From the NCBI GenBank assembly GCA_018241745.1, contig JAFEDG010000002.1:1-64000 (forward strand): a stretch of DNA of 64,000 nt, read 5' to 3'. The DNA is from Pseudomonadota bacterium. GTDB taxonomy: Bacteria > Pseudomonadota > Gammaproteobacteria > Burkholderiales > Casimicrobiaceae. The position numbers were made by a program, and so were the translations under genes. The notes beneath the pieces were generated by a model. The model did no database searches. It was given only the letters and a program-made list of their open reading frames with translations, and was not told the DNA's origin. Shown here one piece after another: positions 19,137 through 34,546 of the stretch. The first letter of the stretch is position 1; each line of letters starts with the position of its first letter.

Positions 19137-19243
19137 GGTTGCGTCCGCCGGAGGACCGGGGATGTGCGACTCCGCTTCACGAACACAGGCGCTGCGTCGG
19201 ACATCCCCGCTCCTCCCGCTCGGAGTGAATGCGGGACGCAGCC
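19137..19243 (+). repeat. long palindromic element C (downstream of the DUF2007 gene)
   Basis: The inner palindrome 19157-19209 pairs CGGGGATGT with ACATCCCCG around a core reading GCTTCACGAACACAGGCGC. Outer arms extend the pairing to 19137-19146 and 19234-19243, with an insertion in the right arm. It begins 5 bases after the stop codon. Its reverse complement aligns with element D over about 95 bases. See findings for the shared core with elements A and B. Confidence 0.75.
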
Positions 19244-19412
19244 TTCGACACATCCGACGAGCGCCGAGTTTCTTCGCGACTATCTGGTCAGGACGACCGC
19301 TTCCTCCGGCTTTGTGGCCAACCCCGGAGTCACGACTGCGTCACCGTTCGGATTTGAAGCGCCAGGCTGGCGTCACCGAGGGTGCGCTGGTAAGCGCGGG
19401 GCCGTTTCGCCA
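19244..19412. other. non-coding spacer between palindromes C and D
   Basis: The 169-base stretch between the two inverted elements has no ribosome-binding site followed by a plausible gene. Open frames run through it, but they continue unbroken through the palindromes on both strands and have no domain-like content. It contains a short hairpin around 19359-19375. Nothing else is recognised. Confidence 0.5.
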
Positions 19413-19506
19413 CGCATTCACGTCCGAGCCGAAGCATCGGGGGTGTCCGACGGAGCGCCTGTTCTCGTGAAGCGTAGTCGGACACCCCCGATGCTCCGGC
19501 GGCGCG
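19413..19506 (-). repeat. long palindromic element D (downstream of the prolyl oligopeptidase)
   Basis: A perfect 18-bp inverted repeat (19434-19451 with 19477-19494) flanks a 25-base core. Read on the minus strand, in the direction of the oligopeptidase gene, the core is GCTTCACGAGAACAGGCGC, almost the same as in element C. The outer arm bases differ from C but remain complementary to each other. It lies 28-41 bases beyond the gene's stop codon. Confidence 0.75.
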
Positions 19507-29999: not shown

Positions 30000-32210
30000 T
30001 TGGGACTGCCGTCCAAGCTGCTGCGCCGGCTGGCGCATGCGCCGCGCGCGCTCGTCGGCGGCGCGATCATCGCGCTGTTCGCGGTTCCCGCGCTGGCGCC
30101 GCGGTTCAACCTGCCCTTGGTGCCCAAGCTCGAGGCCATCGCGTATGACGCTCGACTCGCGCTGACGCGGCCGAACACCGGCGATCCCCAGGTCGTGATC
30201 GTCGACGTCGACGAGGCGAGCCTCGCGCGGGAAGGCCGCTGGCCGTGGTCGCGCGACAAGATGGCGCACCTCGTCACCGAGTTGTTCGACCGCTATCACG
30301 TCCGCGCCATAGGCTTCGACGTCGTGTTCGCCGAGCCCGACACGTCGAGCGGCTCGACCGTCGTCGACCAGCTGGCCAAGTCGACGTTCGCCGACGCGCC
30401 GCGCTTTGCCGAGCGCTGGCGCGCACTGCGTCCGCTGCTGGACTACGACCAGCAGTTCGCGCGCGCGCTGACGGGGCGGCTCACGGTGCTCGCGCTCGGC
30501 TTCAACGCCACCGACCAGCGGGTGAACGCGCTGCCGGCGCCCGCGTTCACGACGCGCGACCTGGGCGGCCACGTGATCCCGATCAGCGCCGAGGCCGGGT
30601 ACACGGCGAACCTGCCGCTGCTCGCTGCGGCCGCCACCATGTCGGGGCACTTCGACCCGACGTTCGATGCCGACAACCTCATCCGTCGCGTGCCAATGGT
30701 GAAGCGCTATGGCGACGGTTTCTTCCCGGCGCTGTCGCTGGCGCTTGCGGCCACCGTACTCGAGTCCAAGGCGATCACGCCGCACTTCGACAGCAACGGC
30801 GACCTCGACGGCCTCGACCTGGGCGGGCTGCTGGTGCCGACGGCCGCCGACGGCACCGTGCTGGTGCCCTACCGCGGCCCGGAGCGCACGTTCCATTACG
30901 TATCTGCGGCGTCCGTGCTGGCGGGAGACCCGAGCGTGACGGGCCTCGAAGGCGCGGTGGCCATCTTCGGCACCAGCGCCAAGGGCTTGCAGGACCTGCG
31001 CTCGACGCCGCTCGCGCCGGACTTTCCGGGCGTGGAGATCCACGCCAACCTGCTGTCCGGCATGCTCAACGACGACCTGCGCTCGGTGCCGCGAGGGGCG
31101 CACGAGCTCGATGCGCTGGTCATGGTGGTCGCGGGGCTCGTCGTCGTGTTCGGCATTTCCTGGCGGCGCCCGGTCGTCATGCTGGTGGGCATTGCCGGCG
31201 TGGCGGCGGCCGTCGTCGGGCTGAACCTCTATTTCTGGATCGCGCAGCGCGCCGTCGTGCCGATCGCCGCGACGCTGGTGATGCTCGCCGTGCTGCTCGT
31301 GTACAACCTGCTGACCGGCTTCGTGCGACAGGTGGTCGAGACGCGGCACCTGTCCGACCAGTTCGGCGAGTACGTGCCGCCCGAGCGCGTGGCGGAGATG
31401 CGCGAGAGCGGTCGCGCGTTTTCGCTCGAGGGCGAGGCGCGCGAGCTCACCGTCATGTTCTCGGACGTGCGGCAGTTCACCGCCGTGTCCGAGCGGCTGT
31501 CGCCGCGCGACCTCTCGGCCATGATGAACGCCTACCTGACCGCAATGACGGAAGCGATCCACGGCACGCGCGGGACGATCGACAAATACATCGGCGACGC
31601 GATCATGGCGTTCTGGGGCGCGCCAGTGCCAAGTCGCACGCACGCGCGCGACGCCGTCCACGCGGCGCTGGCGATGCGCGACACGATGCCCAAGCTCGGC
31701 CCCGTGTTCGAGTCGCGCGGCTGGCCCGAGCTGTCGATCGGCATCGGCATCAACACCGGCACGATGAACGTCGGCGACATGGGATCGCGTTTCCGCCGCG
31801 CATACACGGTGCTGGGCGATGCGGTGAACCTCGCGTCGCGCGTCGAGAACCTCACGAAGCTCTATGGCGTCGTCATCATCTGCGGCGAGGCGACGCGCGA
31901 AGCCGCGCCGGATTTCGTCTGGCGCGAGATCGACCGCGTCCGCGTGCAGAACCGCGCGGCGCCGGTGACGATCTGGGAACCGCTTGGCGTGACCATCGCC
32001 CCGAGCCAGCAGGCGCGGCTCGACCGCTGGAACGCGGCGCTCGCGCTCTATCGTGCGCGCCAGTTCGGAGCCGCGGCCGATGCATTCGCGGCGCTGGAAG
32101 GCGAGGACGTGTCGACGACGCTCTACACCGTCTATCGCGAGCGCTGCGAGGGCTTCATGCGTTCACCGCCCCCGGTGGACTGGGACGGGGCGACGTCTAC
32201 GTTCAAATGA
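30000..32210 (+). CDS. CHASE2-domain class III adenylate/guanylate cyclase
   Basis: A 736-residue membrane sensor. An N-terminal membrane segment (about 18-35) leads into an extracytoplasmic CHASE2 domain (VVIVDVDEASLAREGRWPW and FDVVFAEPD). Three membrane segments follow (about 373-442), then a class III cyclase catalytic domain from about residue 483. Both metal aspartates are present (MFSDVRQF and KYIGDAIMAFWG), so it should be active; whether the substrate is ATP or GTP is not settled. The start appears to be TTG 30000; no in-frame ATG precedes the first membrane segment. It follows the Ig-like gene on the same strand. Confidence 0.87.
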   Translation: MGLPSKLLRRLAHAPRALVGGAIIALFAVPALAPRFNLPLVPKLEAIAYDARLALTRPNTGDPQVVIVDVDEASLAREGRWPWSRDKMAHLVTELFDRYHVRAIGFDVVFAEPDTSSGSTVVDQLAKSTFADAPRFAERWRALRPLLDYDQQFARALTGRLTVLALGFNATDQRVNALPAPAFTTRDLGGHVIPISAEAGYTANLPLLAAAATMSGHFDPTFDADNLIRRVPMVKRYGDGFFPALSLALAATVLESKAITPHFDSNGDLDGLDLGGLLVPTAADGTVLVPYRGPERTFHYVSAASVLAGDPSVTGLEGAVAIFGTSAKGLQDLRSTPLAPDFPGVEIHANLLSGMLNDDLRSVPRGAHELDALVMVVAGLVVVFGISWRRPVVMLVGIAGVAAAVVGLNLYFWIAQRAVVPIAATLVMLAVLLVYNLLTGFVRQVVETRHLSDQFGEYVPPERVAEMRESGRAFSLEGEARELTVMFSDVRQFTAVSERLSPRDLSAMMNAYLTAMTEAIHGTRGTIDKYIGDAIMAFWGAPVPSRTHARDAVHAALAMRDTMPKLGPVFESRGWPELSIGIGINTGTMNVGDMGSRFRRAYTVLGDAVNLASRVENLTKLYGVVIICGEATREAAPDFVWREIDRVRVQNRAAPVTIWEPLGVTIAPSQQARLDRWNAALALYRARQFGAAADAFAALEGEDVSTTLYTVYRERCEGFMRSPPPVDWDGATSTFK

Positions 32211-32218
32211 GGGTTGCG

Positions 32219-32321
32219 AGCCATCCGTCGGGGTTGGGCGTGGCGTGCTTCGCACTCCGGTAACAGCCGTTGGCTGTTACCCTTCTGAGGCGCACGCCAC
32301 GCCCAACCCCGACGGATGGCT
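32219..32321 (+). repeat. long palindromic element A (downstream of the cyclase)
   Basis: Two perfectly complementary 30-base arms (32219-32248 and 32292-32321) enclose a core that itself contains a perfect 10-bp hairpin (32259-32268 with 32272-32281, loop GTT). The core reads GCTTCGCACTCCGGTAA on entry and ends GAGGCGC. The element starts 9 bases after the cyclase stop and ends 10 bases before the GNAT stop, so it could also act as a bidirectional terminator. Confidence 0.85.
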
Positions 32322-32331
32322 GGCCGCGCTC

Positions 32332-32871
32332 CTATGGGTCGAGCTGCAAGCTGTAGACCAGGACGCGGTTTTCGTAGCACTGGCCGCCGAATTCGTAGTG
32401 CGTGATGCCGCGGTCGGCATAACCACGCGCCGCGTAGAAGCTGCGCGCCCGGTCGTTGCCGGACCATGCAGTCAGCCACAGCACTCGCGCGCCGTCCTCG
32501 CGGGCCAGAAGCTCCGCAGCTGCAATCAGGCGGCTCCCGATGCGTTGACGCAGGAAAGGCGATTGCACATACAGGCGCCGCAACTCCGTGGCGGGGCGTT
32601 CCGGCACAAGCGTGTGCGCAGCGTCGCGCTCGAGATCGGCGAATGCCACCAGATGGCCCTGACGCTCCGCGAGCAACGCGACGTAGCGCGGTTGTGCGAT
32701 CAATGCCGAGAACGCGCGCAAGGAAAAGGCGTCTTCCGCCTCTCGCGCAAGCGCATCCGTGACGCCTTCTGTCGCGTAGGTTTCGAGGAACACCTGCGTC
32801 GCGACGGCGTGCAGGCGAAGGGCGTCGTCCTGCGTTGCACGCCGGATCGAGAGATCGGAGTCGCGGGTCAT
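32332..32871 (-). CDS. GNAT-family N-acetyltransferase
   Basis: A 179-residue acetyl-CoA-dependent acyltransferase of unknown substrate. The GNAT core is clear: RRLYVQSPFLRQRIGSRLIA is strand beta4 plus the acetyl-CoA pyrophosphate loop (motif A), and GNDRARSFYAARGY is motif B. There is no good ribosome-binding site before the ATG at 32871. The gene is enclosed by palindromes A and B, which are in opposite orientation, and interrupts what would otherwise be convergent cyclase and FecR genes. Confidence 0.88.
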   Translation of the reverse strand: MTRDSDLSIRRATQDDALRLHAVATQVFLETYATEGVTDALAREAEDAFSLRAFSALIAQPRYVALLAERQGHLVAFADLERDAAHTLVPERPATELRRLYVQSPFLRQRIGSRLIAAAELLAREDGARVLWLTAWSGNDRARSFYAARGYADRGITHYEFGGQCYENRVLVYSLQLDP

Positions 32872-32912
32872 CAGAGGAAGGGCAACGCAGTGCCCGGGAT
32901 GTCGTGCGTTGC

Positions 32913-33014
32913 GCCTTGCGGCGGAGTACGGCCCGGCGCGCGCCTCACGAGGGGTAATGGCCTGTGGCCATTACCGGAGTGCGAAGCGCGCCAGGGCGCA
33001 CTCCGCCGCAAGGC
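32913..33014 (-). repeat. long palindromic element B (downstream of the FecR gene)
   Basis: Outer arms pair perfectly over 15 bases (32913-32927 with 33000-33014), continue with three mismatches, then pair again (32935-32941 with 32986-32992). An inner perfect 10-bp hairpin (32953-32962 with 32966-32975, loop TGT) matches the design of element A. On the minus strand the core reads GCTTCGCACTCCGGTAA and ends GAGGCGC, as in A, while the arms are unrelated to those of A. It lies 17 bases after the FecR stop codon. Confidence 0.85.
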
Positions 33015-33031: not shown

Positions 33032-34546
33032 TCACGAACACTTCGGCGACGAGCATCGTCCATAGCCGACCACGCCTTCGATCACGCCCCCGATGCGCGT
33101 GTTGAAGTAATAGTCGAGGCCGACGCCGGTGACGCCGGGCCCGGTCAGGAAGCCGGAGAAATTGCCCGCGATCACCGACTGGCAGTTGGCCCCGGTGCAG
33201 CTCGTCGTGGCGCCGAGGCCGGACGTCGAAAACAGCGGGCCGACGAGCGACGTGCTGCCGCTCATCGTATAAGTCGCGCCCGTGAACCCGACGGTCAGGC
33301 CCGTCAGCGAAAGGTTGGCCGCGCCGAAGTCGATGGTCACGAGGCCGCCCGACAGCAGCGTGCCAGTAGCGCCGGTCCCCGAGTCCGTCGGCCGCGTGCC
33401 GCCGACGGGGCTGAACGATACGACGCCGGCCGACGGGATGTTCGTGGCGGCCTGGCCGTAGATGTAGTGCAGGTTGCCGCCGTTGTTGGTGACGACGATG
33501 CCGTCGGGAAGCGTCTGCGCGATCGTCGAGCCGGGGCCTTCCCACCGTCCCCAGTTGAGCGAGCCCGCGTCCGGGGCCGAGCCCGTATCCGCCAGCGTGG
33601 CGCTGCCGAGCGACGCATTGAGCGTCGGCGACGTGAAGCCGACCATGCCGCCCGCACCGTCGAGCAGGAGCGGCGACGTGCCAGCGGCGGCCGTGCCCAA
33701 TTCCAGCGTGTAGCGGTCGGAGCCGACGACCCAGGCGACGCTGCCGCCGATCGGCGAGCCGAAGTTCAGGTCCTCGGTCGCCTGGTACGTGAACGGCGGG
33801 CTGGGCTGCGCGAACGCGAGCGGGAATGCAGGGACCTTCGAGAACTCGAGGTCGACCGGCGCCGTGGACGCGACCTGCGTCGTCGTGTGCAGCGCGTCGG
33901 CGAGGAACGTGCGCGGACCGAGCAGTCGCTCCGGCGCATGGCCGTCGGGCACGAAGAAATACTCGCGGATGCCGAACACGTCGTTGCCGAACGGGGTATC
34001 GACGCCGACCGCGCCTTCCAGCACCCCGCCATACAGCCCGGGCGGCGCCGGCGGCGAATCGGGCGCCTCGCGACACTGGCCGTCGGCGCATTCCTGCAGC
34101 ACGTAGTGCGTGCCGCGGATGCCGATGGTCGCCTGCGTCGTCAGCACCGAGTAACGGTCGTGATCGACCTTGCCGATCTGGCCGGACACGGTGCGGAACC
34201 CGCCGCGCACGAGCCGGAATACCGCGCGCTCGTTGCCGTCCGGGTGACCGTTGTAGACGAACTGCTCGATGCGGAATTCGGTGTCGGGCTTCAACGCGAC
34301 GAGCGCGTCGTCGGCGAAGCGGATTTGCGCGTGGCTGTTGGCACCGGTGACGACCGCGTCGCCGCTCGCGACGGTGGCCCCGGCCGCGAGCCGGATGCGA
34401 TCCGCGCCGCGCACCGCGGTGACGTCGCCGACCGCGAGCACGACACGCCCGGCCTGGGCCTGCACGGCCGCCGCGCACAGCATCAGCATCGCGGCGACCG
34501 CTGTGCGCATCGCACGCGCATGCCGCAAGGGGAGCAGGGCGTTCAC
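33032..34546 (-). CDS. secreted FecR-domain protein
   Basis: A 504-residue exported protein of unknown function. A signal peptide (ending AAAVQAQA) is followed by a FecR-type beta domain (about residues 33-150: GDVTAVRGADRIRLAAGATV, GANSHAQIRFADDALVALKP, TTQATIGIRGTHYVLQ). The remainder is Gly/Ser/Thr-rich, predicted beta structure. It lacks the N-terminal cytoplasmic part of sigma-regulator FecR proteins, so it is probably a periplasmic or surface protein. GTG 34546 is favoured by an upstream GAGG at 7 bases. It follows the TPR/beta-barrel gene by 15 bases. Confidence 0.8.
   Translation of the reverse strand: MNALLPLRHARAMRTAVAAMLMLCAAAVQAQAGRVVLAVGDVTAVRGADRIRLAAGATVASGDAVVTGANSHAQIRFADDALVALKPDTEFRIEQFVYNGHPDGNERAVFRLVRGGFRTVSGQIGKVDHDRYSVLTTQATIGIRGTHYVLQECADGQCREAPDSPPAPPGLYGGVLEGAVGVDTPFGNDVFGIREYFFVPDGHAPERLLGPRTFLADALHTTTQVASTAPVDLEFSKVPAFPLAFAQPSPPFTYQATEDLNFGSPIGGSVAWVVGSDRYTLELGTAAAGTSPLLLDGAGGMVGFTSPTLNASLGSATLADTGSAPDAGSLNWGRWEGPGSTIAQTLPDGIVVTNNGGNLHYIYGQAATNIPSAGVVSFSPVGGTRPTDSGTGATGTLLSGGLVTIDFGAANLSLTGLTVGFTGATYTMSGSTSLVGPLFSTSGLGATTSCTGANCQSVIAGNFSGFLTGPGVTGVGLDYYFNTRIGGVIEGVVGYGRCSSPKCS

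Follow-up and report, generated by a model that had tools for sequence, protein, structure and literature searches.

The window, by which we mean the whole 64,000-nucleotide stretch analysed here, belongs to contig C91 in a draft assembly totalling 3.47 Mb and 168 contigs. Within it, a GNAT acetyltransferase gene lies between a CHASE2-guanylate/adenylate cyclase gene and a gene for a FecR-domain protein, and is enclosed by two long palindromic elements, A and B (Table 1). At gathering score, Rfam matched only a tRNA in the window, leaving A and B unmatched, and a scan of the A-GNAT-B region for promoters and terminators found none, with no promoter-like site for GNAT. A small extra inverted repeat (GCAACGCA/TGCGTTGC) is present at 32880-32912, between B and the start of GNAT.

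Table 1. Genes, hairpin elements and element parts in the window
Feature	Position	Strand	Remark
CHASE2-guanylate/adenylate cyclase	30000..32210	+	stop 9 nt before A
Element A	32219..32321	+	candidate 3'-end hairpin of the cyclase gene; outer arms of 30 bp, perfect; RNA fold z -12
A outer arms	32219-32248 / 32292-32321		30 bp, perfect
A conserved left core GCTTCGCACTCCGGTAA	32247..32263	+	
A inner hairpin GGTAACAGCC-gtt-GGCTGTTACC	32259..32281	+	perfect 10-bp
A conserved right core GAGGCGC	32287..32293	+	
GNAT acetyltransferase, 179 aa	32332..32871	-	foreign composition; missing here in three congeners
Element B	32913..33014	-	candidate 3'-end hairpin following FecR; 29-bp outer arms, 3 mismatches; RNA fold z -8
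B outer arms	32913-32941 / 32986-33014		29 bp; 3 mismatches, so B is imperfect
B inner hairpin GGTAATGGCC-tgt-GGCCATTACC as read on +	32953..32975	-	perfect 10-bp
B conserved left core GCTTCGCACTCCGGTAA	32971..32987	-	
FecR-domain protein	33032..34546	-	stop 18 nt before B, read along the gene's strand
Short-loop family member	19150..19216	+	18 nt past stop of gene ending 19132
Short-loop family member	19428..19500	-	35 nt past stop of - strand gene ending 19535; inverted partner of 19150-19216

The initial annotation described A and B as inverted elements with a common core and unrelated arms, and the first half of this description holds. Both carry the core GCTTCGCACTCCGGTAA (2 occurrences against 0.22 expected), a perfectly paired 10-bp inner hairpin of differing sequence (GGTAACAGCC in A, GGTAATGGCC in B) and the GAGGCGC exit, in opposite orientation, and the arms of A are indeed perfect throughout; about 1e-10 30-bp hairpins of this kind are expected by chance in the window. 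The outer arms, however, are not unrelated. Compared in the register of the core, the left arms are identical in 17 of 25 positions, where shuffled arms give 9.1 +/- 2.2 (p = 0.0006, uncorrected for this pair being tied as the most similar of 15 pairs).

In the congeners G012, G004 and G019, the orthologues of the cyclase and FecR genes are directly convergent without GNAT, as had been predicted for the locus lacking its insert, and are separated by 118, 33 and 117 bp, respectively; the gap in the genome studied here is 821 bp. The GC3 of GNAT is 0.778, in the lowest 1%, where the mean is 0.909 (sd 0.035); by GC3 and codon score the gene ranks among the lowest 1-2%. The closest homologue from the genus shares 45% identity with it, and a plasmid search returned relatives of only about 30% identity that do not name a donor. 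Based on its absence from three congeners and its foreign composition, GNAT is, by sequence comparison, an insertion between cyclase and FecR. The cyclase-FecR gap of G012 (L125 1394-1494) holds a different repeat, GTCATYCCCGCG..., which also occurs at many other G012 loci and is the dominant long hairpin of that genome, so that gene ends gather different palindromes in different species.

A and B are members of a hairpin family, of which we located further copies by pattern and covariance-model searches; the sequence sampled came to some 535 kb for this genome and 212 kb for G012. The family numbers about 23 copies here and 15 in G012. A scan of 44 other relatives gave zero copies at the threshold used, a core-1 search of 60 relatives gave nothing convincing, and an exact-core search of 84,980 genomes gave a single chance match, which fell within a Roseomonas gene. 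The tip, GCTTCG...GAGGCGC, is asymmetric and conserved in every copy; it often contains an inner hairpin, encloses a loop of about 21-91 nt and stands on a stem of 15-41 bp (mean 26, 94% paired) whose sequence differs from copy to copy. A scan for long stems in the 535 kb found 23, most of them from this family or from a second palindrome family, GGGTCCGACCC.

Two types of copy can be told apart. Besides A and B, the type with an inner hairpin occurs on C55, C71, C58 (twice), C47 (at the contig end), C168, C54 and C80. The short-loop type, with a loop of mostly 25 nt (GCTTCACGAnnACAGGCGC), comprises the two further copies in the window, four on C135, and others on C45, C46, C58, C67, C80 and C84; the loop of the C84 copy (GCTTCGACTTTTGAGGCGC) bridges the two types, and the copy at C58:74336 has its own, longer loop. 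All 15 copies in G012 are of the short-loop type, some of them in arrays with 118- or 138-bp spacing. Two A-type copies in L014 (5383-5450 and 7687-7755) have a much longer inner hairpin carrying GGGGTC(A/G)GG. These inner hairpins resemble the GGGTCGGACC repeat, possibly as one palindrome nested in another.

The position of the copies relative to genes is polar. Neighbouring genes were called by a codon score trained on 13 genes of the same genome, a script that is less than a full annotation, and polarity was counted over the 22 copies having both flanks. Nineteen of these start 9-57 nt past a same-strand stop codon, behind genes that include cyclase (A), FecR (B), glmM, purB, acs and lolD, in the order stop, G-rich arm, GCTTCG...GAGGCGC, C-rich arm. 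When four tight convergent cases are left aside, 15 copies fit this polarity and 1 is opposite (p = 3e-4), and adding six gene-adjacent G012 copies, judged by inspection, gives 21 against 1 (p = 5e-6). The exceptions, C54:43119, C80:13070 and C135:12188, are not closely behind a same-strand gene, and some G012 copies adjoin gene starts or fall within a divergent region (L154 +, L159 and L168). In this genome the best stem of convergent intergenic regions averages 13.3 bp against 6.75 after shuffling, whereas divergent regions have no excess of long stems (7.1 against 6.8).

The genome contains five inverted pairs including A/B, and G012 contains more. The other four (19150/19428 in the window, C135 30095/30349, C58 74094/74336 and C135 12188/12433) occupy intergenic regions and enclose nothing that is a gene. 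At 19150-19500, two convergent genes are each followed by a hairpin, and the 211 bp separating the two hairpins are free of genes; at C135 12188/12433 the + copy is not behind a + gene. Since the orientation of an element is set by its upstream gene, a convergent gene pair automatically yields an inverted hairpin pair, and no cassette is needed to explain one. The regions downstream of glmM and purB are too diverged across the genus to reveal empty sites.

In light of these observations, we suggest that A and B are probably low-copy 3'-end hairpins of the cyclase and FecR genes, REP/BIME-like in kind, and that GNAT is a later foreign insertion. A would be the gene-end hairpin of cyclase and B that of FecR; convergence of the two genes, each with its own hairpin, would produce the inverted pair, and GNAT would have entered between them afterwards. 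A sits 11 nt past the GNAT stop as well, so that it could serve both convergent genes, cyclase and GNAT. To judge from their position, polarity and stability, the hairpins most likely act as a polar 3'-end cap or a terminator helper. In the RNA, the hairpin may cap mRNA 3' ends by blocking 3'-5' exonucleases; alternatively, it may help Rho-type termination between converging genes. No copy has a U-tract after the stem, with at most 3 T in the next 8 bases, so these are not classical intrinsic terminators, and some 23 copies against thousands of genes cannot constitute a general terminator. In Escherichia coli, inverted repeats are likewise concentrated just past stop codons (PMC6060812), but the present hairpins differ from intrinsic terminators in lacking the U-tract, in having arms and loops of much greater length, and in their conserved, asymmetric tip and G-rich 5' arm.

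Our observations are consistent in several respects with descriptions of REP and BIME sequences, whose stems measure 5-13 bp and loops 2-20 nt, and which bear an unpaired GTAG or CGTC tag at one end (Di Nocera 2013, PMC3733652). Like these, the family is dispersed and intergenic, lies mostly just 3' of coding regions in convergent or unidirectional gene gaps (PMC3733652), and forms inverted dimers and some clusters. It differs in its stems of 15-41 bp and loops of about 21-91 nt, in conserving the tip and not the stem, in apparently having no constant terminal tag, in its copy number of about 23, and in that no linked tyrosine transposase was found. By eye, CGTCCG stands at the base of roughly half the short-loop copies and is absent from the A/B-type copies. 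REPINs show compensatory stem changes, with conserved outer ends and a variable inside (Bertels and Rainey 2011, PMC3116915). The present family resembles them in its hairpin units with compensatory changes, its inverted organisation and its arrays in G012, but keeps the apex, varies the stem and has no RAYT link. We would therefore provisionally file it as a REP-like variant outside any named REP family.

It is possible, if not our expectation, that the copies are non-autonomous REP/REPIN-like mobile hairpins, moved in trans by a Y1 or other single-strand transposase that inserts one way at gene ends, any 3'-end effect being incidental. Dispersed copies with near-identical cores would fit such movement, as would the head-to-head pairs, the 118-138 bp arrays in G012 and the two copies, at C45 and C135:30095, that have most of their arms in common. 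A Y1 transposase gene is present in the genome, but the sole Y1_Tnp found is flanked by GGGTCCGACCC palindromes and not by hairpins of the A/B family; moreover, the stems are far longer than REP stems and unconserved in sequence. The GGGTCCGACCC palindromes are a separate family (GGGTCCGACCC-TATTT...) with an inner part that is variable yet paired, occurring at G000 C105 (L130), L015 325, L073 17272, L088 7523 and other sites.

A structured RNA under RNA-level selection, its stems covarying since pairing in the transcript matters, would account for the fixed polarity, the 3'-UTR position and the very stable folds, and covariation is strong. Two-sided changes are seen in 19 of 25 stem pairs for the A-type alignment; for the short-loop alignment, which spans two species, the figure is 15 of 19. 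These alignments were built from sequences selected as hairpins, so that high pairing is expected by construction, but the variety of pairs is not. None of 500 shuffles scored as high, and sliding the partner abolished the signal. Compensation at the RNA level should, however, leave G-U intermediates, and these are not in excess. On the sense strand of all copies in this genome, G-T mismatches number 9 and A-C mismatches 10. Alignment A5 has 100 two-sided changes and zero G-U cells, with mismatches of 0 G-U against 9 A-C, a difference that is partly due to common descent: because the G012 copies are closely related, the missing intermediates stand for few independent lineages. We regard selection on the RNA as unlikely to be the main explanation of the family.

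The lack of an excess of G-U favours, without proving, arm-to-arm copying of DNA by template switching over ordinary RNA compensation as the cause of stem pairing. Template switching can create and keep hairpins (PMC8794818), and the stems described here resemble its products in their instant two-sided changes, perfect pairing and absence of G-U intermediates. That work concerned RNA genes; here the substrate of the process would be a dispersed repeat whose stems are very long. Were one arm copied onto the other in the DNA, pairing would be preserved while the sequence changes, and the conserved tip may be the part recognised by some protein or mobilizer. We offer only tentatively the fuller model of a class of dispersed gene-end hairpins in which recognition falls on the conserved tip and the long stem can change freely, one arm being repeatedly rewritten from the other in DNA, so that stems would evolve concertedly and differ between loci. 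Integron attC sites have the opposite arrangement, with conserved R'/R'' ends and a variable centre, whereas in this family the ends vary and the centre is conserved.

The initial annotation had proposed that A, GNAT and B form a small mobile or exchangeable cassette, the inverted hairpin ends being recognised by a recombinase or transposase. The foreign composition of GNAT and its absence from the locus in three congeners agree with such a unit, as do the common core and inversion of A and B and arms that are among the most similar pairs tested. At other sites, however, no different cargo was met between similar elements. Within the sampled part of this genome, the search for further pairs returned only the four gene-free ones, with differing spacers; cargo-free pairs do exist, but many copies, such as those after glmM, purB, acs and lolD, are solitary, which is largely the outcome that the annotation itself had taken to speak against a cassette. 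Upstream genes alone account for the polarity and distance of the elements, and no direct repeat longer than 9 bp was found between the A-side and B-side junction regions. We consider it improbable that A and B are the ends of a mobile unit.

Next to a highly conserved tip the arms drift strongly, and their similarity does not go with inner-hairpin type, which leaves room for arms of another origin. One such origin, fold-back duplication of the native 3' flank, disagrees with the base composition and was rejected: in 22 of 22 copies the left arm is G-rich or neutral, whereas the native flank downstream of a gene has, on average, more C than G (mean G minus C of -1.2 over 60 nt). It is improbable that the core alone is the element and was inserted into existing terminator stems, as near-identical cores on differing arms might suggest, since across the 535 kb sampled the stems of non-repeat hairpins after genes measure 9-12 bp (save one of 15 bp) against an arm mean of 26 bp, and the arms, besides their composition, are still similar in register. 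Arm composition and the short non-repeat stems thus argue against derivation from flanks or old terminators.

Inverted repeats on either side of an additional gene do not have to mark a mobile unit, as two convergent genes with polar 3'-end hairpins give the same arrangement. Perfect, locus-specific stems of 25-40 bp would be hard to reach by step-by-step compensation, and this family, shared by two related species, offers natural material on which to test whether DNA template switching maintains perfect hairpins and whether repeats of the REP kind serve as polar 3'-end elements.
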